Origin: a virus
Virus record (IMG/VR): IMGVR_UViG_3300032288_003681
Span: 1-44,044 of that record
Length of the DNA: 44,044 nt
Reading direction: 5' to 3' (one strand)
Shown here: positions 8,715 through 23,900 of the stretch, piece by piece
Layout of the letters: every line of letters begins with the position of its first letter
Numbering within the stretch: the stretch's first letter is position 1
Position numbers and translations under genes: made by a program
Notes under the pieces: generated by a model
What the model was told of the DNA's origin: nothing
Seen by the model: only the letters and a program-made list of their open reading frames with translations
Databases searched by the model: none

Positions 8715-8728
8715 GAATAGAAATATTA

Positions 8729-9818: not shown

Positions 9819-9819
9819 G

Positions 9820-11409: not shown

Positions 11410-11413
11410 GTCT

Positions 11414-11427: not shown

Positions 11428-11443
11428 AATGGCAAGTGAGAGT

Positions 11444-11665: not shown

Positions 11666-11732
11666 TGCTGTCTTTCTGCCCGTACCTAAGTGTCGGGTCT
11701 TTGTTTCTGTCGCCCCTACGGGCTTCCTGTGA

Positions 11733-11801: not shown

Positions 11802-11803
11802 AC

Positions 11804-13345: not shown

Positions 13346-13346
13346 T

Positions 13347-13373
13347 GCTCACCCCTACTTCTGAGGGGTGAGC
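13347..13373 (-). promoter_or_regulatory. SD-sequestering hairpin between ATPase and VWA genes
   Basis: GCTCACCCC (13347-13355) and GGGGTGAGC (13365-13373) form a perfect 9-base stem. In the minus-strand mRNA the 3' arm is GGGGTGAG, the ribosome binding site of the VWA gene, four bases before its ATG. The stop codon of the upstream ATPase gene lies at the loop edge. Ribosomes finishing the ATPase gene would open it, giving translational coupling. Confidence 0.6.
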
Positions 13374-14095
13374 GAGTTCACGGCGATAGCGTCAATGATG
13401 CTCTTGGCTCGTTCGCCAAATACCATCTCTGATGCTTTCTTTGTTCCGAGTGCTGTACGCAACTTGTCAAAGGCGTAGAACGAACGGAGAGAGATACGGC
13501 GTTCGCCTGCGTCACACATCTGACGAGCGTACTCACGCAAGTCCTCACTCATTTTGAGTAGGGCTGACGGGTGTGGCTCGTTGATACGGATACATACAGG
13601 GAAACGGTCTTTGAGTGCCATCGGCAGTTCGCTCATCTGCTCAATGTTGGTGGTCATCACTACGGAGAAACCTTCCAACGGCTTGACCACTTCACGGGTC
13701 TGTGGGTGTTCCCATCGTGCGCTCTCAGGGCTGTCTGTCATTGCCAGCAATGTTGCGAACACATCGCCACCAGCCTTGTCAATCTCGTCAATGACGAGGC
13801 GACCACCTGTAACGGCATCACCCTTCCACGCACGGATAGCCTGTCCGTCAAGCCATGACCACGAGCCATTGTCGTTAGGTTGCCAGCAACCTGTGACATC
13901 TGAGTTTGTCATGTCATCGGTACAGATAAGACGGAACGCACCACTCTCAATGTTTCCGTAGTTCAGACCTGCGTAGGTCTTGCCTGTGCCTGCTGTTCCA
14001 AACAGAATAAGACGGTCAATGCCAGCCTCTAATGCGTCTGCGACATCTTGCCAGCACTTAGGCAGTTTGTCTTGTGTTTCCAATAATGTTGCCAT
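13355..14095 (-). CDS. MoxR/CobS-like AAA+ ATPase
   Basis: The 246 residues have Walker A GTAGTGKT (33-40), Walker B LVIDEIDK (100-107), a sensor segment VVMTTN near 150 and an arginine-finger-like DRFPV. This small AAA+ form is typical of MoxR/CobS ATPases that work with a VWA partner. That partner is encoded immediately downstream, so they probably form a chaperone-like complex that acts on a phage or host target. The leader before the ATG (CACCTACAAACTCCCATGAA) is nearly identical to that of the gene at 14647. Confidence 0.85.
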   Translation of the reverse strand: MATLLETQDKLPKCWQDVADALEAGIDRLILFGTAGTGKTYAGLNYGNIESGAFRLICTDDMTNSDVTGCWQPNDNGSWSWLDGQAIRAWKGDAVTGGRLVIDEIDKAGGDVFATLLAMTDSPESARWEHPQTREVVKPLEGFSVVMTTNIEQMSELPMALKDRFPVCIRINEPHPSALLKMSEDLREYARQMCDAGERRISLRSFYAFDKLRTALGTKKASEMVFGERAKSIIDAIAVNSLTPQK

Positions 14096-14196
14096 TGTGT
14101 TCCCCTTTCATGGGAGTTTGTAGGTGAGTTTGAGTGTAGCGACTTTCTTAGTAGCACACAACTTGTTAGCCATTATTTCTATTGGCTGTTCTTGTA

Positions 14197-14227
14197 AGGG
14201 GTGAGTAGTTTCTAGGTACTCACCCCT
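14197..14227. other. Hairpin downstream of the 14243 gene
   Basis: AGGGGTGAGTA (14197-14207) and TACTCACCCCT (14217-14227) form a perfect 11-base stem with a 9-base loop. It lies between two minus-strand genes and no T-run follows on either strand. Its arms resemble the hairpin at 13347. Confidence 0.5.
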
Positions 14228-14242
14228 CACGAGACTTTGTGA

Positions 14243-14647
14243 CTAGGCGACCTGCGCTTTGTCGGTGGACTTGGACTTCGCATCAGGTGAGATGTTGTAG
14301 GTACGCACCTGTGAGTAGGTGGTGACGGTGGTGACTTCATCGGCAACGCTCTGCTCAATGATGATGCCAACTGCCTTCTCAAAGAGGTCTGCGTCAATGA
14401 CGGTCTTTGTGACCTTCTTGTAGATAGCAGGCTTCACGAGCATTGCCAGTTTGTCTGCGTCAAAGGCACGGCGTGTGCCTGTGGTGATGCTGACCTGAAC
14501 GCCATCTATGACGCTCTCTGTCAATCCAGCAGTTGCTAACGCCTTACGGAGTTCTGTCTCTGCTTCTTTCTTTGCCTTCTCTGCCTGTGCGCTTTCCTCT
14601 TTTGCGAGTAAGTAAGCACGGGTGGCTTGGTCTATGGATAGTGCCAT
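14243..14647 (-). CDS. Coiled-coil protein, 134 aa
   Basis: The N-terminal half is one long charged helix (YLLAKEESAQAEKAKKEAET), probably coiled coil. The C-terminal half alternates short strands and ends in a basic tail (SPDAKSKSTDKAQVA). Not recognised. It lies upstream of the ATPase/VWA pair and has two tandem promoters of the shared type ahead of it. Its 5' leader duplicates that of the ATPase gene. Confidence 0.65.
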   Translation of the reverse strand: MALSIDQATRAYLLAKEESAQAEKAKKEAETELRKALATAGLTESVIDGVQVSITTGTRRAFDADKLAMLVKPAIYKKVTKTVIDADLFEKAVGIIIEQSVADEVTTVTTYSQVRTYNISPDAKSKSTDKAQVA

Positions 14648-14687
14648 TGTGTTCCCCTTTCATTGGGACTTGTAGGTGACAATGAAC

Positions 14688-14741
14688 AAGTTACAGGTGG
14701 TAGGACAGAAACACAAGTTATTTCTTTGTGTCGTTTGTCAC
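14688..14741 (-). promoter_or_regulatory. Shared-type promoter, minus strand
   Basis: Read on the minus strand: operator GTGACAAACGACAC (14728-14741), -35 TTGTGT (14711-14716), 17-base spacer, -10 TAACTT (14688-14693). It drives the gene starting at 14647. Operator and flank are repeated almost exactly 86 bases upstream. Confidence 0.6.
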
Positions 14742-14773
14742 ACTCACTAGGCTTGCTCGCTGTATGAGTTGTA

Positions 14774-14827
14774 AAGGTACAGGTGACACGGCGCAATAGC
14801 AAGTTGTTTCTTTGTGTCCTTTGTCAC
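14774..14827 (-). promoter_or_regulatory. Second shared-type promoter, minus strand
   Basis: Read on the minus strand: operator GTGACAAAGGACAC (14814-14827), -35 TTGCTA (14797-14802), 17-base spacer, -10 TACCTT (14774-14779). It lies in tandem behind the previous one; about 28 of 30 bases around the two operators are identical. Confidence 0.55.
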
Positions 14828-14906
14828 ACGGCGCAATCGGGCTGTCGGGGTCGGTGTGGGGTGGTGGAGATGGTGGGCTGATGGTGGTCGGGGGCAGGGG
14901 GCTGGT

Positions 14907-14938
14907 CTTACGCCACCGTCGTTCTGGCGTTAGCCCCG
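14907..14938 (+). repeat. Core repeat copy 6
   Basis: The core is at 14907-14920 and AGCCCCG at 14932-14938. CGCCA in the core can pair with TGGCG just before AGCCCCG. It lies between divergent promoters. Confidence 0.75.
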
Positions 14939-15031
14939 TTGGCGGCGGCGGGGGGGCGGGGCTTCCAGCCAGATGTCGGGTCTGGGGGGTTTCTGGCGCA
15001 TCAACGCGTTGAGTAATGTTCACTAACCGAT

Positions 15032-15095
15032 GTGACAAACGCCACACATGAATGTTTGACAAATGCTTGACACTTTCAGAAAGTGCCTGTATCTT
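15032..15095 (+). promoter_or_regulatory. Shared-type promoter with spacer palindrome
   Basis: Operator GTGACAAACGCCAC is at 15032-15045. TTGACA (15067-15072) and TATCTT (15090-15095) are spaced by 17 bases. The palindrome CACTTTC-A-GAAAGTG (15071-15085) overlaps the -35 and spacer, a likely second repressor site. It drives the gene at 15137. Confidence 0.6.
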
Positions 15096-15136
15096 GTTCC
15101 TTGTACCACACACCTATCCCACGAAAGGGGAGAGAC

Positions 15137-15601
15137 ATGACAGAACAACTATTACAGGTGGCATCACTCGCCAACCTGTCAAATCCCGAAGGTGGTGATG
15201 ACCCATTCCAAATGGAAGAAGCAGTCATCTTCGCCTTCACTAGCGATGGCTTCCGTATCCTTGTCCGTGAAGCAGATGCGTACCAAGCATTAGAGATGGT
15301 GACTGACAAGCACCTAGGCAGTTGGGAACTCGGCATCGGCATCATCACAACAGGTTGGGCTTGCCCGATTACCGATGATGGCACAATCGCAGAAGATGGC
15401 ACAATGAGTACCCCACCAAGCGAACACCCCCTTCGTCGCCGTGTGCGTCTTGTGAGTTGCGTGGACAAGGCAAAGCACATGGTGTCATCGCTTCGTTTCG
15501 CTGACGACCCTGACGAACTTATTACCGAGACAAGTGGCTCAGGCTCTCTCGCTAACGCCCTGACAACAGCAATCGGCTACATGGTGGCTCGCACGAACTA
15601 A
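15137..15601 (+). CDS. Hypothetical protein, 154 aa
   Basis: Start at 15137 with GAAAGGGGAGAG upstream. Not recognised. Acidic, with a probable alpha/beta body (EEAVIFAFTSDGFRILV, then SWELGIGIITTGWACPI) and a C-terminal helix. It is a single-gene module with its own promoter and terminator, flanked by core repeats 6 and 7. It has no micropeptide. Confidence 0.65.
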   Translation: MTEQLLQVASLANLSNPEGGDDPFQMEEAVIFAFTSDGFRILVREADAYQALEMVTDKHLGSWELGIGIITTGWACPITDDGTIAEDGTMSTPPSEHPLRRRVRLVSCVDKAKHMVSSLRFADDPDELITETSGSGSLANALTTAIGYMVARTN

Positions 15602-15620
15602 GCCCCTCACAGGCTCGCTC

Positions 15621-15665
15621 AAAGCCCTACCGACCCTCGGACACGACAGGTCTGTGGGGCTTTCT
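15621..15665 (+). terminator. Terminator after the 15137 gene
   Basis: AAAGCCCTAC (15621-15630) pairs with GTGGGGCTTT with one mismatch and is followed by a short CTG tail. It is a probable intrinsic terminator with a weak T-run. Confidence 0.5.
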
Positions 15666-15704
15666 GCTGTCCGTGAACTTGTTGCCCACCTGCTAAGTAG
15701 TCGT

Positions 15705-15749
15705 CTTCCCCCACCGTCATAAGTAGTACGGGTGCGCTTCGCAGCCCCG
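15705..15749 (+). repeat. Core repeat copy 7
   Basis: CTTCCCCCACCGTC is at 15705-15718 and AGCCCCG at 15743-15749, with GCTTCGC just before it. The text around AGCCCCG closely resembles copy 11 (GCTTCGCAGCCCCG in both). Confidence 0.72.
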
Positions 15750-15804
15750 GCGGGTTTGCCATCCCAGTTGCCATCCCAGTCGGCAGCGGCAGGAATAGGG
15801 GCAT

Positions 15805-15852
15805 AAAAAAACCCGTTGAGTGCGTCAGCGTGAAACGCACCCAACGGGCTTT
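15805..15852 (-). terminator. Terminator of the 17005-15875 operon
   Basis: CCCGTTG (15812-15818) pairs with CAACGGG (15842-15848) and an inner TGCGT/ACGCA extends the stem. On the minus strand the hairpin is followed by TTTTTTT, a strong intrinsic terminator after the micropeptide gene. Confidence 0.75.
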
Positions 15853-15874
15853 ATGACTTTGGCTTGCGCCTTAG

Positions 15875-15931
15875 TCAGATGTCAGAGGAGAACAAGATTA
15901 TGAACAGTCCAACACAAAAGATGACAGACAT
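15875..15931 (-). CDS. Single-helix micropeptide, 18 aa
   Basis: MSVIFCVGLFIILFSSDI starts on the last base of the preceding stop codon (TGATG) and ends just before a strong terminator. It is the last gene of a four-gene operon. The M-S/N-x-hydrophobic-Phe-Val pattern and length match the micropeptides at 17991, 19872, 22297, 23039 and 23646. It is probably a single membrane helix. Confidence 0.6.
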   Translation of the reverse strand: MSVIFCVGLFIILFSSDI

Positions 15932-16203
15932 CACTTTGACTTCACCTGCTTGTAATACTCCATAGCAGGGGTGTTCCACGCAGGCGCAAGTCGGCGAGCA
16001 AGGCTTGCCACTACCCAAATCATGCGCTCGTCTGAGATGCCGTGCGTGTTCAGATACTCGCCTGCCTCTAAATCGCCTAGCACTATTTCTAGTGCCTCTG
16101 AGCCAGTAGTGCCGAGCGTGAAGTATTGCTCGTCTAACAAATCAACCAGTTCTTCGTTAGTCAAGTCCGTGAGGGGACTTTCGGGTTCTAAATGTATGTC
16201 CAT
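15931..16203 (-). CDS. Hypothetical protein, 90 aa
   Basis: Start at 16203 (MDIHLEPESPLTDLTNEELVD) with AAGGAGAAG upstream, preferred to 16248. It is acidic and helical, ending WNTPAMEYYKQVKSK. Not recognised. Its start lies within the end of the DUF4314 gene and its stop overlaps the micropeptide start. Confidence 0.62.
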   Translation of the reverse strand: MDIHLEPESPLTDLTNEELVDLLDEQYFTLGTTGSEALEIVLGDLEAGEYLNTHGISDERMIWVVASLARRLAPAWNTPAMEYYKQVKSK

Positions 16204-16406
16204 GTATCTTCTCCTTGTATTAGACCGAGTGATGAGCCGTTGTCCCACTTGACATGAAGAGTACCCATGTCGTCAATGTAGTCCACAACGCCTTCATCAC
16301 CGTTTTGTAGTTTTGTGTATGGGTCTGAGCAATGGATAAGGCGTACTCGCTTTCCAGCGAATACGCCCTTCACCCATTCGTTTGCGAGTTGGTCAATGCG
16401 TTTCAT
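16188..16406 (-). CDS. DUF4314-like protein
   Basis: 72 residues from the ATG at 16406, which overlaps the previous stop (TAATG). GKRVRLIHCSDPYTKLQNGD (about 15-34), then EGVVDYIDDMGTLHVKWDNG and a final EDTW follow the DUF4314 pattern, a small beta-barrel-like domain found in phages and mobile elements. Its molecular role is not known. Confidence 0.7.
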   Translation of the reverse strand: MKRIDQLANEWVKGVFAGKRVRLIHCSDPYTKLQNGDEGVVDYIDDMGTLHVKWDNGSSLGLIQGEDTWTYI

Positions 16407-17005
16407 TAGCAAATCTGAAATCCACCACAGTTTGCCAAGAAAGTAATGAACTCACGAACATTCTTTTTGTCAAACGGATAGTTCTTTGCCCAATGTTGCT
16501 GACCACCAGTTCCCTGACAGCCGTTACATTCTTTTGTTTCTTCTGTCCAGCCCTCAGGCTTCTCAACAATGGTGTAGGTCGGAAGTTGTCCGTTACCAGT
16601 ACCCTCGTTGTCTTTCTCATTCATCATGGCTTCCATGAGGTCGTAAGAGATAGATGCCTTGTATTCGTTTTTCTCTTTCGGGTTGGTGTACCAAGTACGC
16701 TTCCCTGTCGCCTGACAATGAACACATGGGCGAATAGGCAAAGACGCAAGCCATTCGGTGCGTGTCTGCTCGTAGTTGTCTAGCGTTCCGTCACGCAGGC
16801 TCTTGCGAAGTGCCTTAGCAAGTTCTTTCGCATCTTCTGCATCAAGCCCATCTCCGTCATTGGAATAGCCGTTCTCAACCGTACAGGTCAGTTCAGGTGC
16901 GACAAACTCGCAGTATTCCCATAAGGGTCGCCACCACCACACATTATTGCGGAAGTATGCGCCCTTCTCATTCTTTGGCTCTATGCCATAAACATCCATT
17001 CCCAT
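16406..17005 (-). CDS. Protein with DnaJ-type zinc motifs, 199 aa
   Basis: Start at 17005 (MGMDVYGIEPKNEKG) with AGAAAGGGG upstream; the longer frame to 17389 crosses a core repeat and a promoter. Two CxxCxGxG motifs, CVHCQATGK and CNGCQGTGG, form a DnaJ-like zinc-finger pair. The N-terminus, with clustered Trp and an acidic helix, resembles small phage proteins of unknown role. It heads a four-gene operon driven by a shared-type promoter and ending in a micropeptide. Confidence 0.68.
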   Translation of the reverse strand: MGMDVYGIEPKNEKGAYFRNNVWWWRPLWEYCEFVAPELTCTVENGYSNDGDGLDAEDAKELAKALRKSLRDGTLDNYEQTRTEWLASLPIRPCVHCQATGKRTWYTNPKEKNEYKASISYDLMEAMMNEKDNEGTGNGQLPTYTIVEKPEGWTEETKECNGCQGTGGQQHWAKNYPFDKKNVREFITFLANCGGFQIC

Positions 17006-17034
17006 TGGATACCCCTTTCTAGTAGGTAGTAGAG

Positions 17035-17088
17035 AGTGTAATAGACACATGGCACTTGTCAATAGGTTATTTTTGTGTCGTTCGTCAC
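17035..17088 (-). promoter_or_regulatory. Shared-type promoter, minus strand
   Basis: Read on the minus strand: operator GTGACGAACGACAC (17075-17088), -35 TTGACA (17057-17062), 16-base spacer, -10 TACACT (17035-17040). It drives the operon starting at 17005. Confidence 0.65.
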
Positions 17089-17132
17089 ACCTGTACATGA
17101 ACTTGTACAAGTCGCATCCGTGCTGGCGAGTT

Positions 17133-17190
17133 CTTCCGCCACCGTCGGTTTTTGTCTGGTAGCCCCGTCCGGCAAAAACGCGCCGCGGGG
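17133..17190 (+). repeat. Core repeat copy 8 with AGCCCCG hairpins
   Basis: The core is at 17133-17146 and AGCCCCG at 17161-17167. GTTTTTGTCTGG and CCGGCAAAAAC pair around it with one bulge, leaving AGCCCCG in the loop. Alternatively AGCCCCG pairs with CGGGGCT a little further on. The two structures exclude each other. Confidence 0.72.
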
Positions 17191-17247
17191 CTTCCGTGCC
17201 ATCTGGGAGTTCTTCTGGGTTCTGAGGCTGTGACTGGGCAAAACAAA

Positions 17248-17273
17248 AGCCCCACGCCGTAAAGCGTGGGGCT
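17248..17273 (-). terminator. Terminator after the 17298 gene
   Basis: AGCCCCACGC (17248-17257) and GCGTGGGGCT (17264-17273) form a perfect 10-base stem. On the minus strand it is followed by TTTTGTTTTG. It is a strong intrinsic terminator. Confidence 0.78.
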
Positions 17274-17297
17274 AGTGTTTCGGGTTTGCTCTTGCGA

Positions 17298-17492
17298 TTA
17301 TTTGGTGATTGCGTTTGCAAACTTCTCAGCGTCAAAACGGTAGTTCTCGGATTGTAGGGCTTTGGCGATTGCTTTGATAGCCTCGTCAAAACCTTTCAGC
17401 GTTGCTTCTGCCTGTGGCATCATGCTCGCTTCCAAGTCTTTGCGCTTGTCGTTGAGAAACTTTGCCAGCAGGACATAGTCCTTGCGTGTCAT
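17298..17492 (-). CDS. Small helical protein, 64 aa
   Basis: Start at 17492 (MTRKDYVLLAKFLNDKRKDL) with AAGGGGAAACC upstream. The product is helical, with a C-terminal YRFDAEKFANAITK. The layout resembles short conserved actinophage proteins of unknown role. It is a single-gene module with a shared-type promoter near 17643 and its own terminator. No micropeptide is present. Confidence 0.65.
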   Translation of the reverse strand: MTRKDYVLLAKFLNDKRKDLEASMMPQAEATLKGFDEAIKAIAKALQSENYRFDAEKFANAITK

Positions 17493-17642
17493 GGTTTCCC
17501 CTTCTCGGTGCTTTGGTTGTAAGTGAGACAGGTGCGCTTGTCTAAGGCGCACCCCCTACCCCGACAGTTCCCCCCTATGGTTTCAGGTCACAGATTATGT
17601 GGAGCAATCCCAAAAGGCTTCGGTTCAGTTGTCTCACTTGTA

Positions 17643-17686
17643 AGGGTACAGGTGTCACCCACACATTGCAACATGACATTTGTCAC
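17643..17686 (-). promoter_or_regulatory. Shared-type promoter next to LexA-like boxes
   Basis: Read on the minus strand: operator-like GTGACAAATGTCAT (17673-17686), -35 TTGCAA (17666-17671), 17-base spacer, -10 TACCCT (17643-17648). It drives the gene at 17492. The first LexA-like box abuts the operator. Confidence 0.6.
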
Positions 17687-17797
17687 AGAACAGGTGTTCG
17701 CCGAACAAGTGTTCGCATGAGACACAAACGCCCAAACTGTCTCACGCTACGAACAGGTGTTCGCCTGAGACATTCGGAGCCAAACTGTCTCACTCAC
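17687..17797. promoter_or_regulatory. Three LexA-like boxes in 48-base tandem repeats
   Basis: AGAACAGGTGTTCG (17687-17700), CGAACAAGTGTTCG (17702-17715) and CGAACAGGTGTTCG (17750-17763) match the actinobacterial SOS box CGAAC-N4-GTTCG. Boxes 2 and 3 each begin a 48-base repeat that continues with GAGACA...CCAAACTGTCTCAC, itself an inverted repeat. It could bind host LexA or a phage repressor. Confidence 0.6.
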
Positions 17798-17837
17798 TCG
17801 CACACCCCCCCCGTGAACTCGCCCTTCGCCCGTGCTT

Positions 17838-17897
17838 CTTGCGCCACCGTCGCTTTGGGGTCTTGAGCCCCGGCCGGAAAAACCGGCCCGCGGGGCT
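17838..17897 (+). repeat. Core repeat copy 9 with AGCCCCG hairpin
   Basis: CTTGCGCCACCGTC is at 17838-17851 and AGCCCCG at 17866-17872. AGCCCCGGCCGG-AAAAA-CCGGC...CGGGGCT forms a very stable hairpin. Confidence 0.75.
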
Positions 17898-17952
17898 ACT
17901 GGGGCGACGCTCAGGTTGCCATCGGCAGCGGCGATGTCGGCTGAGGAAAGAC

Positions 17953-17982
17953 TTGACATCGGCGAGGCTGTGTGTGTAAAGT
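17953..17982 (+). promoter_or_regulatory. Promoter of leaderless micropeptide gene
   Basis: TTGACA (17953-17958) and TAAAGT (17977-17982) are spaced by 18 bases (or TGTAAA with 16). The ATG at 17991 follows the -10 by eight bases, so the transcript should start at or next to the start codon. Confidence 0.55.
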
Positions 17983-17990
17983 GACTAACA

Positions 17991-18041
17991 ATGAACTCAC
18001 TACTATTTGTAATAGCCCTAATCATTGTGCTTAGTGCCTAA
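17991..18041 (+). CDS. Single-helix micropeptide, 16 aa
   Basis: MNSLLFVIALIIVLSA differs at only two positions from the peptide at 23039 (MNSLLFVIALIIILTF has VLSA replaced by ILTF in the last four), with many synonymous codon changes. It has its own near-leaderless promoter and comes first rather than last before the 18118 gene. Conservation of the peptide over the DNA argues for translation. Confidence 0.62.
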   Translation: MNSLLFVIALIIVLSA

Positions 18042-18058
18042 TGTCACAAAACAACTAC

Positions 18059-18087
18059 TTGACTAATGGCTACTAACTTGGTAGTCT
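18059..18087 (+). promoter_or_regulatory. Promoter for the 18118 gene
   Basis: TTGACT (18059-18064) and TAGTCT (18082-18087) are spaced by 17 bases. The operator is not recognisable beyond a partial TGTCACAAAACAAC upstream. Confidence 0.45.
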
Positions 18088-18117
18088 GAAAGTCTCAACT
18101 CACAAAAGGGGGGAATC

Positions 18118-18474
18118 ATGACTGATTCTGTCATTGAGTGGGAAGTGATAAGCAACACTTCAGACGAAGTGGAGTGGGACGATGCGAACTTTGTGTTCGC
18201 TGAAGTAGCCAACACGCTCATTGCTCATAATGAGGAACTCAACGAAGGCGACACTTGGTGGCGTGTTCAGGGATTCCCGTTGTGGGGCGGTGGGCGCAAT
18301 GGTATTTTCCGCGCCGATAGTCCGATGGAGTTGTTGGAGAGTATTACCGTTCGTTCGGACTGGTCATTGCGCTACACGCTTGACCCCGAAACGATGATTC
18401 TCACTTGTCACCTTTCTCACCACGATGCAAGCGGAACTTTCACGGTGCAGGCAACGCCTAATCCAGACCGCTAA
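18118..18474 (+). CDS. Hypothetical acidic protein, 118 aa
   Basis: ATG after AAAAGGGGGGAATC. Not recognised. Acidic and tryptophan-rich (EGDTWWRVQGFPLWGGG near 62-78), probably beta-rich to the C-terminus. It is followed by a terminator and core repeat 10. The 3' flank (terminator plus repeat) closely parallels that of the unrelated gene at 21229. Confidence 0.65.
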   Translation: MTDSVIEWEVISNTSDEVEWDDANFVFAEVANTLIAHNEELNEGDTWWRVQGFPLWGGGRNGIFRADSPMELLESITVRSDWSLRYTLDPETMILTCHLSHHDASGTFTVQATPNPDR

Positions 18475-18495
18475 TCCAACCAACCACAACCAAGC

Positions 18496-18530
18496 AAGCC
18501 CGTTCCCGAAAGGGGGCGGGCTTGTTGTTT
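18496..18530 (+). terminator. Terminator after the 18118 gene
   Basis: AAGCCCG (18496-18502) and CGGGCTT (18517-18523) with inner CCC/GGG pairing, then TTGTTGTTT. The interior GTTCCCGAAAGGGGGCGGGC is shared with the terminator at 21621. Confidence 0.75.
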
Positions 18531-18541
18531 GTACGCACTCT

Positions 18542-18598
18542 CTTCCGCCACCGTCATAGTAGTGAGACTGCCATCGGCAGCCCCGCTACCCGATGGCA
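18542..18598 (+). repeat. Core repeat copy 10 with AGCCCCG-loop hairpin
   Basis: The core is at 18542-18555 and AGCCCCG at 18579-18585. CTGCCATCGG and CCGATGGCAG form a perfect 10-base stem with CAGCCCCGCTAC as the loop. The rest of the gap to 18954 is AT-rich with repeated TTTGACT/TTTGACC words and a second hairpin. Confidence 0.8.
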
Positions 18599-18785
18599 GT
18601 AAGCCCCCGAACGTTCTATCTCAGCACGTTTGAGTTTGACTTTTTTTGTGTTTGACTCAGTTTTGACCACTTTGAGTAAGAAACTTTTACTTTTCACCAC
18701 TATCCGTGTTTATCTAAGCAAAACTGGCAAAAAACTAAGGCCAGAAAGTCCCCGTCGAGGGCCGGTTCTTCTGGGCCGTGCGAGA

Positions 18786-18818
18786 GTCCCGATGCTCGCA
18801 TCGCCCTTCGGGGCTTAC
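18786..18818 (+). other. AGTCCCG...CGGGGCT hairpin
   Basis: AGTCCCGATG...TCGGGGCT can pair in a structure like those at 21077 and 22625, with the mismatch arm reversed. It lies in the long non-coding leader of the 18954 gene. Confidence 0.45.
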
Positions 18819-18870
18819 GGGCGCACGCACGGGCGCAGTCGCACACGAGGCTGGCTTCCGATGAAGGGCT

Positions 18871-18913
18871 GTGACAAACGACACTTGTGTTTTGTGTTGT
18901 TGTTCCGTACACT
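18871..18913 (+). promoter_or_regulatory. Shared-type promoter, plus strand
   Basis: Operator GTGACAAACGACAC (18871-18884), -35 TTGTGT (18885-18890), 17-base spacer, -10 TACACT (18908-18913). It drives the gene at 18954. Confidence 0.65.
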
Positions 18914-18953
18914 TACAGTTGTTACATACACCTACACCCTTGGGGGGTAAAAA

Positions 18954-19532
18954 ATGGAAGAAGAAAATAGTCCAGAGCAAGTTCTTGCGATGGTCGTGGA
19001 AAAAGCAAAACAAGCAAAGTGGATACTTTGTGAAGAGAATGGTGGCATAGCAGACGCACCACCAATACTCTTCGGAGAGTTCGCAAACGGCGATGGCTTC
19101 ATCGCCCCCGACCTTATGGAAGGTCACCCAACAGACACCTTGCCTGTAATGCTAGACGGCTTGCTACAAGGAATGACCGAGCAGTACGGAACACCAAAGT
19201 TCCTGTGGCTTGCTTATGTCGTAGAGGGCTACTGTCGTCCAGCAATGACAGACGAAGAAATGGAAAAAGCACAGCGTGGAGAAATGGAAGAGGACTACAA
19301 AAAAAATCCTTCCACAGATGTCCGTGAGGGCATTATCGCTACTGTCTATCCGTGGGACGGAGAAGCAATAGCGCAGACGCTTCTGTATCGCTATGACGAC
19401 AACGGTATGCCTGTCTTTGACGAGGCTGACGACTTCCAAGAGGTTGGGAAAACAGGTGGTGGCAACATTCCTGACTTGTTCCAAATGTTCATTACTCATT
19501 GTCGCCGTGTCGTAGAGGCAAAGAACAACTAA
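18954..19532 (+). CDS. Hypothetical acidic protein, 192 aa
   Basis: ATG with CTTGGGGGGTAAAAA upstream. Not recognised. The sequence is acidic, with a helical start (SPEQVLAMVVEKAKQAKW), a long acidic central helix (TDEEMEKAQRGEMEEDYKK) and an aromatic-containing end. It is the largest protein in the plus-strand module array. It has its own promoter and a terminator; no micropeptide follows. Confidence 0.68.
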   Translation: MEEENSPEQVLAMVVEKAKQAKWILCEENGGIADAPPILFGEFANGDGFIAPDLMEGHPTDTLPVMLDGLLQGMTEQYGTPKFLWLAYVVEGYCRPAMTDEEMEKAQRGEMEEDYKKNPSTDVREGIIATVYPWDGEAIAQTLLYRYDDNGMPVFDEADDFQEVGKTGGGNIPDLFQMFITHCRRVVEAKNN

Positions 19533-19547
19533 GTCCCCCCAAGAGCC

Positions 19548-19590
19548 AAGGGGTCGTTCGCCGAGTTACATCGGTGGGCGACCCCTTTGT
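19548..19590 (+). terminator. Terminator after the 18954 gene
   Basis: AAGGGGTCG (19548-19556) pairs with CGACCCCTT (19579-19587) across a GC-rich loop, followed by TTGTG. It is a probable terminator with a weak T-run. Confidence 0.6.
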
Positions 19591-19609
19591 GCTGTCCCCG
19601 AATAGTTCT

Positions 19610-19654
19610 CTTCCCCCACCGTCATAATAGAGTTGGGTCTGCTTCGCAGCCCCG
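19610..19654 (+). repeat. Core repeat copy 11
   Basis: CTTCCCCCACCGTC is at 19610-19623 and AGCCCCG at 19648-19654, preceded by TCTGCTTCGC. Immediately beyond lies a TATAAA that may be the -10 of the next gene. Confidence 0.75.
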
Positions 19655-19668
19655 CTAGTATAAACATT

Positions 19669-19875
19669 ATGACCTACGCCTTATTTCGTTGTGTATATTG
19701 CGACCACCCAGTTTCAGTCGGTGAAAGTGGAGTGATGAAGCAGGTCTTGTGTTGGGTTCGGTCAAACAACAACACATCTCCGAAGGGCATACAGAGTCAG
19801 CATCGGTACGCACACGCTGTGTGCTTGGAAACGGATTTACACGGCAGGTCTGAACAAGCCGAGACCCTGTTTTAG
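19669..19875 (+). CDS. Small Cys/His protein, 68 aa
   Basis: Start at 19669 (MTYALFRCVYCDHPVSVGE); TATAAA ends six bases earlier, so the mRNA may be leaderless. The CVYC pair near residue 8 with CW, HRYAHAVC later could bind zinc. It is convergent with the micropeptide at 19872-19925, overlapping by four bases. Function is unknown. Confidence 0.6.
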   Translation: MTYALFRCVYCDHPVSVGESGVMKQVLCWVRSNNNTSPKGIQSQHRYAHAVCLETDLHGRSEQAETLF

Positions 19876-19925
19876 TTCAGGAAAAGAACAAGACCAATGG
19901 CGACAACAAAGATGATGCTCATCAT
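19872..19925 (-). CDS. Single-helix micropeptide, 17 aa
   Basis: MMSIIFVVAIGLVLFLN ends the minus-strand operon 20727-19872. The ATG overlaps the previous stop (AATGATG). It has the M-S-I-I-F-V start of the family and a fully hydrophobic body with a single terminal Asn. Probably membrane-spanning. Confidence 0.6.
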   Translation of the reverse strand: MMSIIFVVAIGLVLFLN

Positions 19926-20320
19926 TGGTGCGCCTTGCGCCAGCCACCATTGCCATCGCCAAAGTAAGTGTCGGGCTTACCGTTGCCGACTTTCTTCCAA
20001 GTCCAAGCCCAGCGACAGCACGAAGGGTGAAGTGTCCCATCGTCACCATCATCACGAAAGTCCGTGTGTATGAAGTTCGGGTGACAGCCACCTTGAAACT
20101 TGTTACCAAGCAACGGGAAAGTGGTCAGAAACTTTACAACGCAGTCGTGACACATACTCAGAAAGCGTGTCTCTTCTCCACCTATCAGCACATCAACGCA
20201 GTCGTCAAAGCCCCCGTAGTAGCCGAAGCAGTCAATAGGTAAAGACCAACCCCCATCAGGGGACACGCTTTGTTGTGTGTTGCGTTGTTCTAAACCACAA
20301 GTATCACAGGTAATACTCAT
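19922..20320 (-). CDS. Cysteine-rich protein, 132 aa
   Basis: Start at 20320 overlaps the stop of the upstream gene (GAATGAG). Cysteines occur as CDTC near the N-terminus and CHDC in the middle, with others near the end (PSCCRW), suggesting two zinc sites. A region rich in Gly/Asp/Phe follows (CFGYYGGFDDC). Not recognised. Confidence 0.65.
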   Translation of the reverse strand: MSITCDTCGLEQRNTQQSVSPDGGWSLPIDCFGYYGGFDDCVDVLIGGEETRFLSMCHDCVVKFLTTFPLLGNKFQGGCHPNFIHTDFRDDGDDGTLHPSCCRWAWTWKKVGNGKPDTYFGDGNGGWRKAHQ

Positions 20321-20490
20321 TCTTCCTCTACTGAATAGTCAGAGTTCCACCAAGTTAGTTTTCCTGTGTTGGTTTCTAGAACGCTTGTCAAATGGTCAAG
20401 GTACGCATTGACTATTTCGTTAGCAGACTTTTCATCGTCAGCCTCAAACCCGTCAAGGTGCAAGGTTATTGTGCCTGTGTAGTTTTTCAT
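20317..20490 (-). CDS. Hypothetical protein, 57 aa
   Basis: MKNYTGTITLHLDGFEADDE... has strand-then-helix character and an acidic end (WWNSDYSVEEE). The ATG has GAAAGAAGAAA upstream and the stop overlaps the next start. It starts ten bases after the stop of the membrane protein gene ending at 20500. Not recognised. Confidence 0.6.
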   Translation of the reverse strand: MKNYTGTITLHLDGFEADDEKSANEIVNAYLDHLTSVLETNTGKLTWWNSDYSVEEE

Positions 20491-20499
20491 TTTCTTCTT

Positions 20500-20727
20500 T
20501 CAGGGTTGGTAGATGTTGTACCCGTACGGGTCGTACAAGGTCGTTGTTGTTTCACACGGGTAGTGATAATACTCGCAGTCAGATAGACCTTGCTTCTCAT
20601 CTCCGATAGAGGCGAGAAGAATGAGTGTCGTACCGATGAGGCTTGTCCAAAAGACAAACCGTACACACGAACGCACCTTGTAGTAGATAGGTGGGTGACT
20701 TGTTTTTTCTTCACGCAACTTTTTCAT
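20500..20727 (-). CDS. Single-pass membrane protein with YDPYGY tail, 75 aa
   Basis: MKKLREEKTSHPPIYYKVRS precedes a membrane helix (about 21-41). An outer segment ends in CEYYHYPCETTTTLYDPYGY. The helix start (VRSCVRFVFW) and the tail match the plus-strand protein at 23454 (VRTCVRFVFW, and HYPCETPTTIYDPYGY). The two are paralogs in separate modules on opposite strands. The -10 ends seven bases before the ATG, so the mRNA is probably leaderless. Confidence 0.72.
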   Translation of the reverse strand: MKKLREEKTSHPPIYYKVRSCVRFVFWTSLIGTTLILLASIGDEKQGLSDCEYYHYPCETTTTLYDPYGYNIYQP

Positions 20728-20734
20728 AGAGTGA

Positions 20735-20777
20735 AGGGTACAGGTGTCAAACACACATTGCAAGTGCCGTTTGTCAC
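20735..20777 (-). promoter_or_regulatory. Shared-type promoter, minus strand
   Basis: Read on the minus strand: operator GTGACAAACGGCAC (20764-20777), -35 TTGCAA (20758-20763), 17-base spacer, -10 TACCCT (20735-20740). It is close to the ATG of the 20727 gene, consistent with leaderless transcription. Confidence 0.65.
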
Positions 20778-20831
20778 ACAGGGAGAAGCGAGGAAGGGAG
20801 TGAGTGAATAGACGGCGAAGAACAACTCGCT

Positions 20832-20886
20832 CTTGCGCCACCGTCGTAATGGGGCTGAGGGGTAGCGGGGCTAACGCGCAGCCCCA
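20832..20886 (+). repeat. Core repeat copy 12
   Basis: CTTGCGCCACCGTC is at 20832-20845. GGGGCT...AGCCCC flanks AACGCGC just downstream; AGCCCCA at 20880-20886 is the AGCCCCG equivalent. It lies between divergent promoters. Confidence 0.72.
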
Positions 20887-21017
20887 GAAGAAGCCAGGCG
20901 AAGGGGGTTGAAACCAGGCAAGTCGGTTGGTTTGTGTTTTGGTTTTTTCTTTTTTTGACCACGCAGCGTAATAAACTTTGTTTTTTGACCACTTTTAGTG
21001 AGATTGCGCCAAAAAAC

Positions 21018-21045
21018 TTGACAAAAACGGACTTCGTGTTATGCT
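21018..21045 (+). promoter_or_regulatory. Promoter within the AT-rich leader block
   Basis: TTGACA (21018-21023) and TATGCT (21040-21045) are spaced by 16 bases. The promoter lies after an AT-rich stretch with repeated TTTTTTGACCAC. It would transcribe the hairpin at 21077 and possibly a separate small RNA before the gene at 21229. Confidence 0.5.
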
Positions 21046-21076
21046 TTTTACCATCAGCGCACCCGTCGCATCTGGG

Positions 21077-21114
21077 AGCCCCGATGGTAGCGATGCTGAC
21101 ATCGGGACTATCCC
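21077..21114 (+). other. AGCCCCGATG...CATCGGGACT hairpin
   Basis: AGCCCCGATG pairs with CATCGGGACT with a single C-A mismatch at the third position. The same mismatch occurs in the hairpin at 22625, where the inner bases differ but still pair. Confidence 0.5.
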
Positions 21115-21165
21115 GCGCGCGCGACGGAGTTTCTCGGCTGTGGCTTGGTCTGCCTCGGCTGGCGT

Positions 21166-21208
21166 GTGACAACTGCCACTTGCGTTTGTAGCGTGTTGCT
21201 TGTACCCT
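21166..21208 (+). promoter_or_regulatory. Shared-type promoter, plus strand
   Basis: Operator GTGACAACTGCCAC (21166-21179), -35 TTGCGT (21180-21185), 17-base spacer, -10 TACCCT (21203-21208), driving the gene at 21229. Confidence 0.6.
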
Positions 21209-21228
21209 ACAAAGTGGAAGGGGGTGAA

Positions 21229-21591
21229 ATGAAACTAACAAATACTGACCTGTCACTTATCGCATTGCGTAATCGTGACCGTTCAGGTCGTGACTGTGAC
21301 CCGCAAGAAGTTATAGCCCAAATGGGCAGAATGAACTTCTATGCTGTTTGCGGTGGCAAGTGGGCAAAGATAAACGCTAGTGATGGCGTGACTATCGGCT
21401 TACTGATGCCGTGTGGCGAAAGTCGCGCGGTTGAGGTGGTGCTCAACTTTCTAGACCTGTACGAAGTGCGCCGTGTGCGCCTTGTGAACCGTGGCGAAGC
21501 CAAAGGTACGCTAGTCGTTGAGCACGAAGTGCTAGATGTTTATTGCGAGAACCTAGGCGACGCTGTGTATTCTGCTTCCTGCTGGAAGTAA
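21229..21591 (+). CDS. Hypothetical protein, 120 aa
   Basis: Start at 21229 (MKLTNTDLSLIALRNRDRSG) with GGAAGGGGGTG upstream. Not recognised. Mixed alpha/beta, with arginine-rich segments (YEVRRVRLVNRG). Its terminator and following repeat closely copy those after the gene at 18118, although the proteins are unrelated. Confidence 0.65.
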   Translation: MKLTNTDLSLIALRNRDRSGRDCDPQEVIAQMGRMNFYAVCGGKWAKINASDGVTIGLLMPCGESRAVEVVLNFLDLYEVRRVRLVNRGEAKGTLVVEHEVLDVYCENLGDAVYSASCWK

Positions 21592-21620
21592 TCCAACCCA
21601 ACAACCCAACTAGCCAAGTG

Positions 21621-21655
21621 CGCCCGTTCCCGAAAGGGGGCGGGCGTTTCTTGTT
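21621..21655 (+). terminator. Terminator after the 21229 gene
   Basis: CGCCCG (21621-21626) and CGGGCG (21641-21646), then TTTCTTGTTG. The interior matches the terminator at 18496 while the outer base pair changes from A-T to C-G, a compensatory difference. Confidence 0.75.
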
Positions 21656-21666
21656 GTGCGCATTGT

Positions 21667-21726
21667 CTTACGCCACCGTCACCAATAGTTTAGAGGTACT
21701 TGGTAGCCCCGCCCACCAAGTACCCC
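21667..21726 (+). repeat. Core repeat copy 13 with AGCCCCG-loop hairpin
   Basis: CTTACGCCACCGTC is at 21667-21680 and AGCCCCG at 21705-21711. GGTACTTGG and CCAAGTACC form a perfect 9-base stem around a loop containing AGCCCCG. Beyond lie two direct repeats TATTTTTTACTCAAA (21788 and 21808) in the AT-rich block. Confidence 0.8.
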
Positions 21727-21892
21727 AGACGGAGTCACGTGAGCTCGAGCTCGAGCTTGGAAGGGAGAAAAAAATAATGGAACTTCGTATTTTTTACTCA
21801 AAGTTGCTATTTTTTACTCAAACACAAAAGAAAGTCGGCAAAACGCTAAGTCCTCAGGTGAAGAACCCACGTTCAGATGTCTTCCGACGGGG

Positions 21893-21928
21893 AAGCCCCG
21901 CGGCCGGATTTTTCCGTCCGGGACTCTG
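21893..21928 (+). other. AGCCCCG...CGGGACT hairpin
   Basis: AGCCCCGCGGCCGGA...TCCGTCCGGGACT can fold into a long imperfect hairpin, matching the second-hairpin position in the leaders at 21077 and 22625. Confidence 0.45.
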
Positions 21929-22027
21929 GCCCAACCCGTGGCCACGGGCCCCCGCTGCCGCTGCGACCACGACCGACATCGTGAAGTTCTATGTGCTGGT
22001 TCTGCTTGTGTTTGTTGCGGTTCGGCT

Positions 22028-22070
22028 GTGACAAACGACACTTGTCAAAGCGAGTTGTGACCTGTAACCT
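22028..22070 (+). promoter_or_regulatory. Shared-type promoter, plus strand
   Basis: Operator GTGACAAACGACAC (22028-22041), -35 TTGTCA (22042-22047), 17-base spacer, -10 TAACCT (22065-22070), driving the gene at 22098. Confidence 0.65.
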
Positions 22071-22097
22071 GCTACTTACTATCTACAAGGAGGTTTC

Positions 22098-22304
22098 ATG
22101 CCGGAGTTCTATCCGGAAGAAGCCAAGTTACAGAAGTCAAAAAGATACGGAAAAACTTTTGGCAAGATGGTGAAGGCGTTTGAGGGCACTAAGTGCGGGC
22201 GATGCGGTCACATCATTGACGAAGGTACTAATTGCGTTTGGCTTCGTGGGCTTGGTTGCTTTCACATACAAGGCGAGTGTCCAAAGAAAGAAGAGAATGA
22301 ATAG
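22098..22304 (+). CDS. Small zinc-finger protein, 68 aa
   Basis: ATG with AAGGAGGTTTC, a strong ribosome binding site. The N-terminus is basic (YPEEAKLQKSKRYGKTFGK). CGRCGH, then a later NC and ECPKK, suggest one zinc site. Not recognised. The stop lies inside the micropeptide gene that starts eight bases earlier. Confidence 0.68.
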   Translation: MPEFYPEEAKLQKSKRYGKTFGKMVKAFEGTKCGRCGHIIDEGTNCVWLRGLGCFHIQGECPKKEENE

Positions 22305-22347
22305 TCTTCTTTTTGTAATCGCCATCATCGTTATTCTTTCTTTCTAA
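22297..22347 (+). CDS. Single-helix micropeptide, 16 aa
   Basis: MNSLLFVIAIIVILSF overlaps the end of the zinc-finger gene in another frame, with GAAAGAAGAG as a possible ribosome binding site. A terminator begins seven bases after its stop. It is one of three nearly identical MNSLLFVIA peptides (17991, 22297, 23039). Confidence 0.66.
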   Translation: MNSLLFVIAIIVILSF

Positions 22348-22353
22348 AAGAAA

Positions 22354-22385
22354 AACCCTCGTGCTTCGGTGCGAGGGTTTTTTTT
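22354..22385 (+). terminator. Terminator after the 22297 micropeptide
   Basis: CCCTCG-TGCTTCGGTG-CGAGGG with a TTTTTTTT tail. The loop GTGCTTCGGTGC is shared with the terminator at 23091, while the stem differs and keeps pairing. Confidence 0.85.
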
Positions 22386-22391
22386 GCGCCT

Positions 22392-22446
22392 CTTCCGCCA
22401 CCGTCAATTTATTTACAACCCCCTTCACAGCCCCGCTTGTGAAGGG
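22392..22446 (+). repeat. Core repeat copy 14 with AGCCCCG-loop hairpin
   Basis: CTTCCGCCACCGTC is at 22392-22405 and AGCCCCG at 22429-22435. AACCCCCTTCAC and GTGAAGGGGGTT form a perfect 12-base stem with AGCCCCGCTT as the loop, the clearest case of the AGCCCCG-loop hairpin. Confidence 0.82.
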
Positions 22447-22550
22447 GGTTGCTCTCAGCGCACGCTCGCCCGTCGCCAAAAAAACTGAGCAAAAAACTCA
22501 AAGAACTTCAAGTTTTTTGTCAAAAAAAACAAAAAAGTCATAAAACAAAC

Positions 22551-22578
22551 TTGACAAATGAAAAAAACTTGTTATGTT
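22551..22578 (+). promoter_or_regulatory. Promoter within the AT-rich leader block
   Basis: TTGACA (22551-22556) and TATGTT (22573-22578) are spaced by 16 bases, the same design as at 21018. It would transcribe the hairpin at 22625 and a long leader of the 22805 gene. Confidence 0.5.
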
Positions 22579-22624
22579 GCTTGGTTTGACTGGGGTGTGT
22601 CAGAGTTTTGCCATCTTCGCACGG

Positions 22625-22660
22625 GAGCCCCGCATACCCATCTTGGGGATGCGGGACTAT
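22625..22660 (+). other. AGCCCCGCAT...ATGCGGGACT hairpin
   Basis: AGCCCCGCAT pairs with ATGCGGGACT with a C-A mismatch at the third base and an inner CCC/GGG pairing. The inner stem bases covary with the hairpin at 21077 (CAT/ATG versus ATG/CAT). Confidence 0.5.
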
Positions 22661-22804
22661 TGCTGTCGCATCAGGTCTGGTTGCTCAGATGGCTGATGGC
22701 AAGCCTCAACCTTGCCGAAAGGCGCACGAGCGTGACGAGTGTCATAGTGGAATTGCGCACTGCACCCTATAAGGTGTAACCATAACCGAGGGGGTGAAAA
22801 AATA

Positions 22805-23002
22805 ATGACAAAAACAGAAGCAGAACAACTTGCCAAGGGCAAGACGCTAGTAGAACTTTACGAGATTATTCGTCTTAGTTCCGAATACGAAGCGAACGCC
22901 GAAAACGACCTAATCGTTGCGGTAGTAGATGCAGAAATTCGCAGCCGAATGGGTAACGACCACCCAGTCGGACTCGCTGCACTACTTTCTCCACGCCGAT
23001 AA
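22805..23002 (+). CDS. Small helical protein, 65 aa
   Basis: ATG with CGAGGGGGTGAAAAAATA upstream. The product is helical and charged (TKTEAEQLAKGKTLVELYEI), ending in LLSPRR. Not recognised. It forms a two-gene module with the micropeptide 36 bases downstream. Confidence 0.62.
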   Translation: MTKTEAEQLAKGKTLVELYEIIRLSSEYEANAENDLIVAVVDAEIRSRMGNDHPVGLAALLSPRR

Positions 23003-23038
23003 GCCATAACCAACCCGTTTATTTAGCAAGAGAGGAAA

Positions 23039-23089
23039 ATGAATAGTCTTCTTTTTGTAATCGCACTCATAATCATACTTACTTTCTAA
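23039..23089 (+). CDS. Single-helix micropeptide, 16 aa
   Basis: MNSLLFVIALIIILTF has a clear ribosome binding site of its own (AGAGGA, five bases before the ATG), the best evidence in the family that these peptides are translated. It is the last gene of its module and a strong terminator begins directly after its stop. Confidence 0.72.
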   Translation: MNSLLFVIALIIILTF

Positions 23090-23090
23090 A

Positions 23091-23126
23091 AAGTCCCCGT
23101 GCTTCGGTGCGGGGACTTTTCTTTTT
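23091..23126 (+). terminator. Terminator after the 23039 micropeptide
   Basis: AAGTCCCCGTGC-TTCG-GTGCGGGGACTT, then TTCTTTTTG. Same GTGCTTCGGTGC centre as the terminator at 22354 with a different, still paired, stem. Confidence 0.85.
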
Positions 23127-23128
23127 GT

Positions 23129-23172
23129 CTTCCGCCACCGTCAATGTATTTGCCAATGCCTTTGCAGTCCCG
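23129..23172 (+). repeat. Core repeat copy 15
   Basis: CTTCCGCCACCGTC is at 23129-23142 with AGTCCCG (a one-base variant of AGCCCCG) at 23166-23172. This is the rightmost copy. Confidence 0.75.
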
Positions 23173-23191
23173 TTGGCTCGTAAAGTTACAG

Positions 23192-23312
23192 CCTTCCACT
23201 CACTCAGATTCTGCTCGGCTACGCCGAAGCAGAAACCTTCGTTCATTACAGTCATAACTTTACTCGCAGGCTCTTCGTAACTCTCTGGCGAGAGTACTTC
23301 AGAGCCCCGTTG
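23192..23312 (+). ncRNA. Structured element E, paralog of 23781-23900
   Basis: It begins CCTTCCACTCA, continues with hairpin TCTGCT-CGGC-TAC-GCCG-A-AGCAGA (23210-23233) and hairpin ACTCTC-TGGC-GAGAGT (23280-23295), and ends AGAGCCCCGTTGAG. The element at 23781 has the same order, spacing and start. It lies upstream of the shared-type promoter of the 23454 gene. A non-coding RNA or cis-element is inferred. Confidence 0.45.
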
Positions 23313-23368
23313 AGTTTTTATGACTTGGGCGCATCTCCGCCAGCACCTCGTGCGGTCTTGGGTCAAGG

Positions 23369-23423
23369 GTGACAAACAGCACACGAAAAGGTTCTTGACT
23401 TTGACTCTTGTAACTTGTACCTT
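23369..23423 (+). promoter_or_regulatory. Shared-type promoter, plus strand
   Basis: Operator GTGACAAACAGCAC (23369-23382), -35 TTGACT (23395-23400), 17-base spacer, -10 TACCTT (23418-23423), driving the gene at 23454. Confidence 0.6.
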
Positions 23424-23453
23424 GTACATGGGCGGAGAACCCGAAGGGAAACT

Positions 23454-23636
23454 ATGTACAATTTTGTACGCACTTGCGTTCGTTTTGTGTTTTGGGGAAC
23501 CATTGTTAGTGCGGTTTGGTTGGGCATCATTGCTATTTCCAACTCGTACGACAGCGACACCCCTGAATGCGAAATGCTCCACTACCCATGTGAAACACCA
23601 ACAACCATCTACGACCCATACGGGTACGGAAACTAA
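23454..23636 (+). CDS. Single-pass membrane protein with YDPYGY tail, 60 aa
   Basis: Start at 23454 (MYNFVRTCVRFVFW) with GAAGGGAAACT upstream, preferred to an ATG at 23415. A transmembrane helix spans about residues 7-28. The tail SDTPECEMLHYPCETPTTIY is followed by DPYGY. It is a paralog of the minus-strand protein at 20500. The conserved CE...HYPCET and YDPYGY tail may bind a partner. A micropeptide gene follows nine bases later. Confidence 0.72.
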   Translation: MYNFVRTCVRFVFWGTIVSAVWLGIIAISNSYDSDTPECEMLHYPCETPTTIYDPYGYGN

Positions 23637-23645
23637 AGGGGGAAA

Positions 23646-23696
23646 ATGAGTTCTGTTATCTTTGTAGCAGTTTTGTTTGCGATATTAGCATTGTGA
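23646..23696 (+). CDS. Single-helix micropeptide, 16 aa
   Basis: MSSVIFVAVLFAILAL has a ribosome binding site (AAGGGGGAAA) and is followed by a terminator. It is more diverged than the MNSLLF copies but keeps length, the M-x-S start and Phe-Val at positions 6-7. Confidence 0.66.
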   Translation: MSSVIFVAVLFAILAL

Positions 23697-23707
23697 AAGG
23701 AAAAAGA

Positions 23708-23738
23708 TGTCCCTGCTCAGGCAGGGGCATTTTTTTTG
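23708..23738 (+). terminator. Terminator after the 23646 micropeptide
   Basis: TGTCCCTGC-TCAG-GCAGGGGCA followed by TTTTTTTT. It is a strong intrinsic terminator. Confidence 0.85.
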
Positions 23739-23780
23739 CCCTTTTTTGGCTACTTAGTAGCCCCGCTCACTCCGTCACGA

Positions 23781-23900
23781 CCTTCCACTCAATACGCATT
23801 CTGCTTGGCTGCGCCAAAGCAGAAAACTACTTTCGTTCCAGACGTGACTTCGTTCGCAGTCTGCAAATTCACTCTACGAGTGAATTGTGCAGCCCCGTTG
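23781..23900 (+). ncRNA. Structured element F, paralog of 23192-23312
   Basis: It begins CCTTCCACTCA, with hairpin TCTGCT-TGGC-TGC-GCCA-A-AGCAGA (23800-23823) and hairpin ATTCACTC-TAC-GAGTGAAT (23867-23885), and ends CAGCCCCGTTGA. Compared with element E the inner stem changes from CGGC/GCCG to TGGC/GCCA, a compensatory C-G to T-A change. It ends at the stop of the minus-strand gene at 23902. Confidence 0.45.

Follow-up and report, generated by a model that had tools for sequence, protein, structure and literature searches.

Conserved structured elements with compensatory changes beside an oriented box array in a probable actinophage genome

Introduction

How small early phage genes are assembled and reshuffled is an old question. 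Boundary sequences have been proposed but seldom clearly seen. In mosaic phage genomes, conserved boundary or linker sequences lie at module borders. The window studied here is a linear IMG/VR record of 44,044 bases, analysed as a whole. It carries two similar structured stretches, first placed at 23192-23312 and 23781-23900. Are they coding sequence, RNA or sites on the DNA, and do they serve the genes next to them?

Results

Two elements share a three-helix fold

Both CCTTCCACTCA starts (23192 and 23781) and both AGCCCCGTTGA ends (23303 and 23891) lie where the original prediction had placed them. With one mismatch allowed, the window holds four matches to CCTTCCACTCA (0.9 expected) and three to AGCCCCGTTGA (0.6 expected). 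The predicted hairpin with a bulged A and a C-G to T-A change is present in the sequence, and a second hairpin occurs in both elements with unrelated sequence. Folded, both elements give z-scores of about -3.

Both elements have, in addition, a third, long-range outer stem (P1), absent from the original prediction. AGYCCCG stands at both ends of each element, so the length is about 140-145 nt. The predicted extent of about 120 bases is too short once the outer stem and the AGYCCCG ends are included. Element 1 occupies 23166..23309 on the + (listing) strand, from AGTCCCG (23166-23172) to the terminal AGCCCCG (23303-23309). Its P1 is GTAAAGTTA/TAACTTTAC (23180-23188/23255-23263), followed by P2 with the bulged A (23209-23219/23223-23234) and P3 (23269-23274/23301-23306 and 23280-23285/23290-23295). 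Element 2 occupies 23759..23897 on the same strand, from AGCCCCG (23759-23765) to the terminal AGCCCCG (23891-23897). Here P1 is GTCACG/CGTGAC (23774-23779/23843-23848), P2 with the bulged A lies at 23799-23808/23814-23824 and P3 at 23861-23874/23878-23892.

Homologues were recovered by pattern and covariance-model searches from eight related IMG/VR phage contigs; each contig has one or two copies, giving 13 distinct sequences in all. The model scores them at 101-199 bits, and its search gave nothing convincing beyond the homologues in related contigs. The two elements are similar, as described originally, but they are not a mere pair. A lack of further homologs with preserved pairing had been named as one half of the refuting outcome, and the homologues recovered here speak against it.

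In the alignment of the 13 sequences, which are closely related, P1 encloses ~65-75 bases, the bulged-A P2 lies inside it and P3 comes after. Pairing is present in 96% of pair cells. Changes on both sides affect 13 of the 24 pairs (37 cells), and single-side changes are confined to two misregistered rows. The alignment has a covariation score of 0.377, shuffles one of 0.168, and none of 500 shuffles reaches the observed value. Sliding the pairing by 1-3 columns destroys the signal. P1, for example, appears as GTCACG/CGTGAC, GTACCG/CGGTAC or GTTACA/TGTAAC, and AGYCCCG opens and closes every aligned element. Only six G-U cells were counted among ~300 pair cells, all of them from the two misregistered rows; the phage tRNAs are too few to calibrate G-U frequency.

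The length of P2 varies by 11 bases between copies. This difference and the pairing pattern make coding unlikely, in line with the earlier view that no ORF explains the elements. Overlapping ORFs are "conserved" only as a by-product of DNA conservation. The elements are genuine conserved structured elements with compensatory evolution, neither coding nor chance. At the gathering threshold of Rfam 15, the window gives three tRNAs only and no match for the elements. At a relaxed threshold, only weak sub-threshold matches appear, none across either element. In a DNA comparison, neither the region nor the two elements had a match among the INPHARED phages.

An array of boxes in one orientation

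Upstream of the elements lies an array of ~15 boxes (7785..23142), all on the + strand. The 15-base consensus is TC[A/T]T[C/A]C[G/A]CCACCGTC, derived from 97 distinct sites. The boxes start at 7785, 8491, 9353, 10684, 11413, 14906, 15704, 17132, 17837, 18541, 19609, 20831, 21666, 22391 and 23128. The last one, TCTTCCGCCACCGTC (23128..23142), is immediately upstream of element 1. The window has 21 copies of AGCCCCG where 3.6 would be expected. AGYCCCG and a hairpin usually follow within 60 bases of a box, with AGCCCCG mostly at 10-45 bases.

Across 14 phage contigs, exact box matches fall on a single strand per contig (136/136), in a region of ~15-20 kb. The reversed pattern, used as a control, gave 0 matches in the same contigs. 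A scan for box plus AGCCCCG found 87 stretches in ~50 viral contigs, often with 4-11 copies per stretch. Bacterial genomes gave single scattered pattern matches only and no arrays. The lake actinophage genome DSL-LC01, which has one related gene, shows no box array within the 47 kb read. Of 12 contigs tested, 11 carry WhiB genes, which indicate actinobacterial hosts; the window is one of these 11. Given these genes and the lake origin of relatives, the phages probably infect abundant, hard-to-grow freshwater actinobacteria.

The genes between boxes point both ways. The pairs flanking 142 boxes are +/+ in 53 cases, -/- in 41, -/+ in 31 and +/- in 17, so the box is oriented without regard to the genes beside it. 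Of 84 boxes with a rightward gene next, 74 are followed by AGYCCCG, against 26 of the remaining 58, which leaves room for a transcription-linked role. AGYCCCG is often missing from boxes in the left part of the array, where genes are mostly leftward (window 7785-14906). For this reason, its role may be distinct from that of the box. The box itself was rejected as a sigma70 promoter, having no -10 at fixed spacing.

Hairpins beside the box

The partner hairpins are of two main types. In one, the stem is an inverted repeat of 10-15 bp with variable sequence, and the loop contains AGCCCCGC. In the other, AGYCCCG forms the stem base and is closed by CGGGRCT. A typical simple boundary (22391..22451, +) consists of a box, a 10-base spacer and a 14-bp perfect inverted repeat (22416-22429/22438-22451) whose loop contains GCCCCG. 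On the same strand, a box stands with a 10-bp perfect inverted repeat (loop AGCCCCGCCC) at 21666..21720, and with an 11-bp inverted repeat (loop CAGCCCCGCTAC) at 18541..18598. A class II hairpin follows the box at 17132..17192 (+), with AGCCCCG (17161) paired with CGGGGCT (17186).

Stem mismatches were counted in box-side hairpins and in the terminators upstream. Box-side hairpins have 4 G-T and 8 A-C mismatches, against 45 G-T and 6 A-C in the terminators (Fisher p 0.00025). The box-side hairpins are thus without the + strand RNA signature of G-U (G-T) wobble. Folding of the minus strand was also considered; a first count favoured it, and a stricter count that excluded the conserved loop gave no support.

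A second hairpin class lies ~250 bases downstream of the box, often after sigma70-like sites. Between +210 and +320, the hairpins have 14 G-T and 4 A-C mismatches. With both features, this class may be RNA. An instance in the window is the second spacer-element type at 22551..22665 (+), a sigma70-like TTGACA-16-TATGTT (22551-22578) followed by the hairpin AGCCCCG..CGGGACT (22626-22658). The commonest form of this second family, downstream of TTGACA-16-TATGTT-like sites, is AGCCCCG-TAT-ACCC-ATCTT-GGGG-ATA-CGGGACT. It is seen in the window at 21018-21110, 21894-21935 and 22551-22665, and also in L058, L130, L131 and L188. This family could represent a transcribed leader that has a function of its own. 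A different arrangement occurs in F5 modules (e.g. window 19609-19690), where an apparently leaderless gene has AGCCCCG between its -35-like and -10-like sites.

Box-to-box modules vary between genomes

When gene families were mapped across 15 genomes, the order of box-to-box modules differed, and many insertions of a single module were seen at boxes. The F3 module occupies several different slots. F1 and F6 modules are flipped in gene direction, and the box orientation is unchanged. Homology blocks start at a box edge in 8 cases (1.3 expected) and end at the opposite box edge in 9 (1.1 expected), a count that is biased because a conserved 15-mer near gene ends attracts alignment ends. In F2 modules, for example, identity is 91% and homology stops at box +15. 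The spacer after the box is retained in 22% of cases when both neighbour genes are shared and in 3-7% when one is shared.

The elements occupy slots too. In the window, element 1 is in the box-side slot; in L130 the element is in the second slot, and the F0/F18 junction is used in both. In G005, G011 and L171, this junction holds a short unrelated hairpin with double AGYCCCG instead. Gene F18 reads towards element 2 in L124 as it does in the window; in L130 it starts directly after the element.

Transcription around the elements

Terminator-like hairpins of rightward units sit to the left of the box. By promoter-like pattern scans only, + sites are in excess between +150 and +250 of the box (71 vs 16 in shuffles) and - sites between -100 and 0 (31 vs 16 in shuffles). 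These positions suggest that the box and the first hairpin are likely outside the main transcripts. In L130 and L128, a sigma70-like site lies ~64 bases upstream of the element copy. Element 1 in these two contigs, and some related hairpins, are 30-65 bases downstream of such a site and may be transcribed.

A regulatory role for the neighbouring micropeptide modules had been suggested, and the context argues against it. Both elements lie beyond the terminator-like hairpins of micropeptide units. One hairpin, on the upstream side of the box, closes the preceding + unit (23089..23120, +); the other is bidirectional and immediately upstream of element 2 (23700..23737, +). Element 1 is also upstream of the promoter-like site of the next gene, F0 (TTGACT-17-TACCTT, 23395..23423, +). 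Moreover, the neighbour varies: F18 is reversed in L130 relative to the window and L124, and the slot is filled by an unrelated short hairpin in the three contigs named above.

Comparison with known systems

In cluster A mycobacteriophages, stoperators point along the direction of transcription and serve as repressor-binding sites. Box orientation does not track transcription direction, and this identity was rejected. The box also has a hairpin partner, which is not a known stoperator feature. What is shared is the repetition of short asymmetric sites across intergenic regions (described for stoperators in PMC4351075).

Other actinophages carry comparable arrays. Microbacterium cluster EC phages have 12 copies of an 18-bp asymmetric motif, similarly oriented, 21-30 bp before start codons (PMC7302621). 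Mycobacteriophages of cluster O have 34 copies of a 17-bp dyad, about a third inside genes, and some gene-content changes were attributed to recombination between the repeats (PMC4351075). As in both arrays, a short conserved motif is found here in many small intergenic regions. However, the EC sites stand just before start codons (PMC7302621) and the cluster O sites are symmetric (PMC4351075), whereas the 15-base box holds one orientation whatever the gene direction. Its sequence is unrelated to either, and its partner is a hairpin whose stem varies and whose AGYCCCG is constant.

Integrase-less attC clusters occur in virulent phages (PMC9892861). With these and with integron arrays, the window shares small-gene modules, same-orientation sites and a conserved motif with a variable hairpin (PMC9892861). 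Modules are likewise gained, lost and moved, and the same-orientation array of small modules gained or lost at a site is found here as in an integron or CALIN. In contrast to integrons, RYYYAAC...GTTRRRY at 45-150 b is not above chance (2 on + and 2 on - among 247 sites vs 2.4 in shuffles), and attC was rejected. No attC architecture is present within either element. The modules also carry their own promoter-like sites, with genes in either direction. The tyrosine recombinase PF00589 is absent from 12 contigs of up to 160 kb (control positive in 14/14 genomes), although CALINs lack an integrase by definition and contigs may be incomplete. The same contigs lack the serine recombinase PF00239 and the Y1 transposase PF01797 (control positive in 6 genomes), and no recombinase was found among cassette genes by Pfam or PHROGs. 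The array is integron-like in logic only, an analogue and not an integron.

Compared with boundary or linker sequences of mosaic genomes, the box is likewise a short shared sequence at borders where homology starts or stops. It differs in being repeated ~15 times in one genome, in one orientation and with structured partners.

Discussion

Our preferred reading, held tentatively and at somewhat less than an even chance, is that the elements are a more elaborate form of a spacer element that acts on the DNA as a boundary or exchange point, within the cassette-like array of a group of freshwater actinophages. The box has a fixed orientation and lies in spacers, and modules are gained, lost and moved. 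From this we infer a boundary acting at the DNA level and a mechanism of exchange. Modules would recombine box to box in fixed orientation, and homologous recombination between boxes would suffice. Transient single-stranded or cruciform hairpins beside the box would mark or tolerate the exchange points. In the window lineage, a ~130-nt three-helix fold bounded by AGYCCCG would have replaced the simple hairpin in two adjacent slots flanking F0.

A DNA boundary is favoured because the orientation is constant (136/136) and independent of gene direction, because modules are inserted and moved box to box with homology blocks at box edges, and because the elements occupy interchangeable slots. The position of the box in spacers flanked by promoter-like sites, the lack of a G-T excess in box-side hairpins and the lack of convincing G-U in the elements point the same way. 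It is weakened by the missing recombinases, the biased breakpoint count, the preference of AGYCCCG for rightward-gene spacers and the possible transcription of some hairpins and of the L128/L130 element 1. The long conserved single-stranded stretches inside P1, which are RNA-like, also weaken it.

These stretches, with three strongly covarying helices, would fit regulatory RNA. Each element would be a small RNA or a leader or trailer RNA from the + strand, with P1-P2-P3 and the internal loops functional. The sigma70-like promoter ~64 bases upstream in L130/L128 and the G-T-rich hairpins of the +210 to +320 zone agree with this reading, which we regard as a serious rival, if less likely than the DNA boundary. 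The window copies, however, stand beyond strong terminator-like hairpins with no promoter-like site seen just upstream, and element 1 precedes the promoter-like site of F0. Convincing G-U pairs are lacking in ~300 pair cells, no Rfam family comes near threshold, and the adjoining gene flips orientation between relatives. The preference for rightward genes might instead suggest transcription control on the DNA, the box being a phage-specific promoter or operator, like those of actinophage motif arrays and stoperators, and the AGYCCCG hairpins insulators or regulator sites for rightward units. Promoters and box do share spacers, and a motif array upstream of genes is published for actinophages (PMC7302621). 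We consider it unlikely, since the box ignores gene direction, 58 of 142 box spacers have no rightward gene next, and the stems vary freely, a feature unneeded for a sequence-specific operator. A T7-like single-subunit RNA polymerase (PF00940) gave no match in 11 contigs, with the control genomes equally silent.

Improbable to a similar degree is an integron-like but unrelated cassette system, in which oriented box and hairpin sites, folded as DNA, would be the exchange points of an early-gene array. It would use an unrecognised recombinase or phage annealing machinery, with the three-helix elements as specialised sites. We give very little credence to a small non-autonomous mobile hairpin inserted at AGYCCCG, with 7-base direct repeats at its ends. 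AGYCCCG is indeed at both ends, there are at most two copies per genome in differing slots (window vs L130), and the elements are confined to eight close relatives. Yet no copies exist beyond these slots, and the Y1 transposase expected of a REP/IS200-type hairpin was not found in the 12 contigs. Compensatory changes in every helix argue for a kept function rather than for decay.

One motif marks module borders in ~50 viral contigs, in constant orientation and tied to compensatorily maintained structures. It offers a concrete set of sites for studies of exchange, expression control or replication.

Several minor observations concern the genes of the array. F18 is inverted between lineages beside the same element (window 23902-24237, -; L130 9309-9657, +) and in PHROGs weakly matches MotA-like activators (E 0.03). 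F0 paralogues, encoding a small membrane-like protein, lie on opposite strands of the array (window 20500-20728, -; 23455-23636, +). Conserved hydrophobic peptides of 16-18 aa (MNSLLFVIAIIVILSF and similar) close several units right before the terminator, at 22297-22347, 23039-23089, 23646-23696 and ~17990 in the window, and at the F0/F18 junction in relatives. In the relatives, their sequence has changed, and their length and hydrophobicity are retained.
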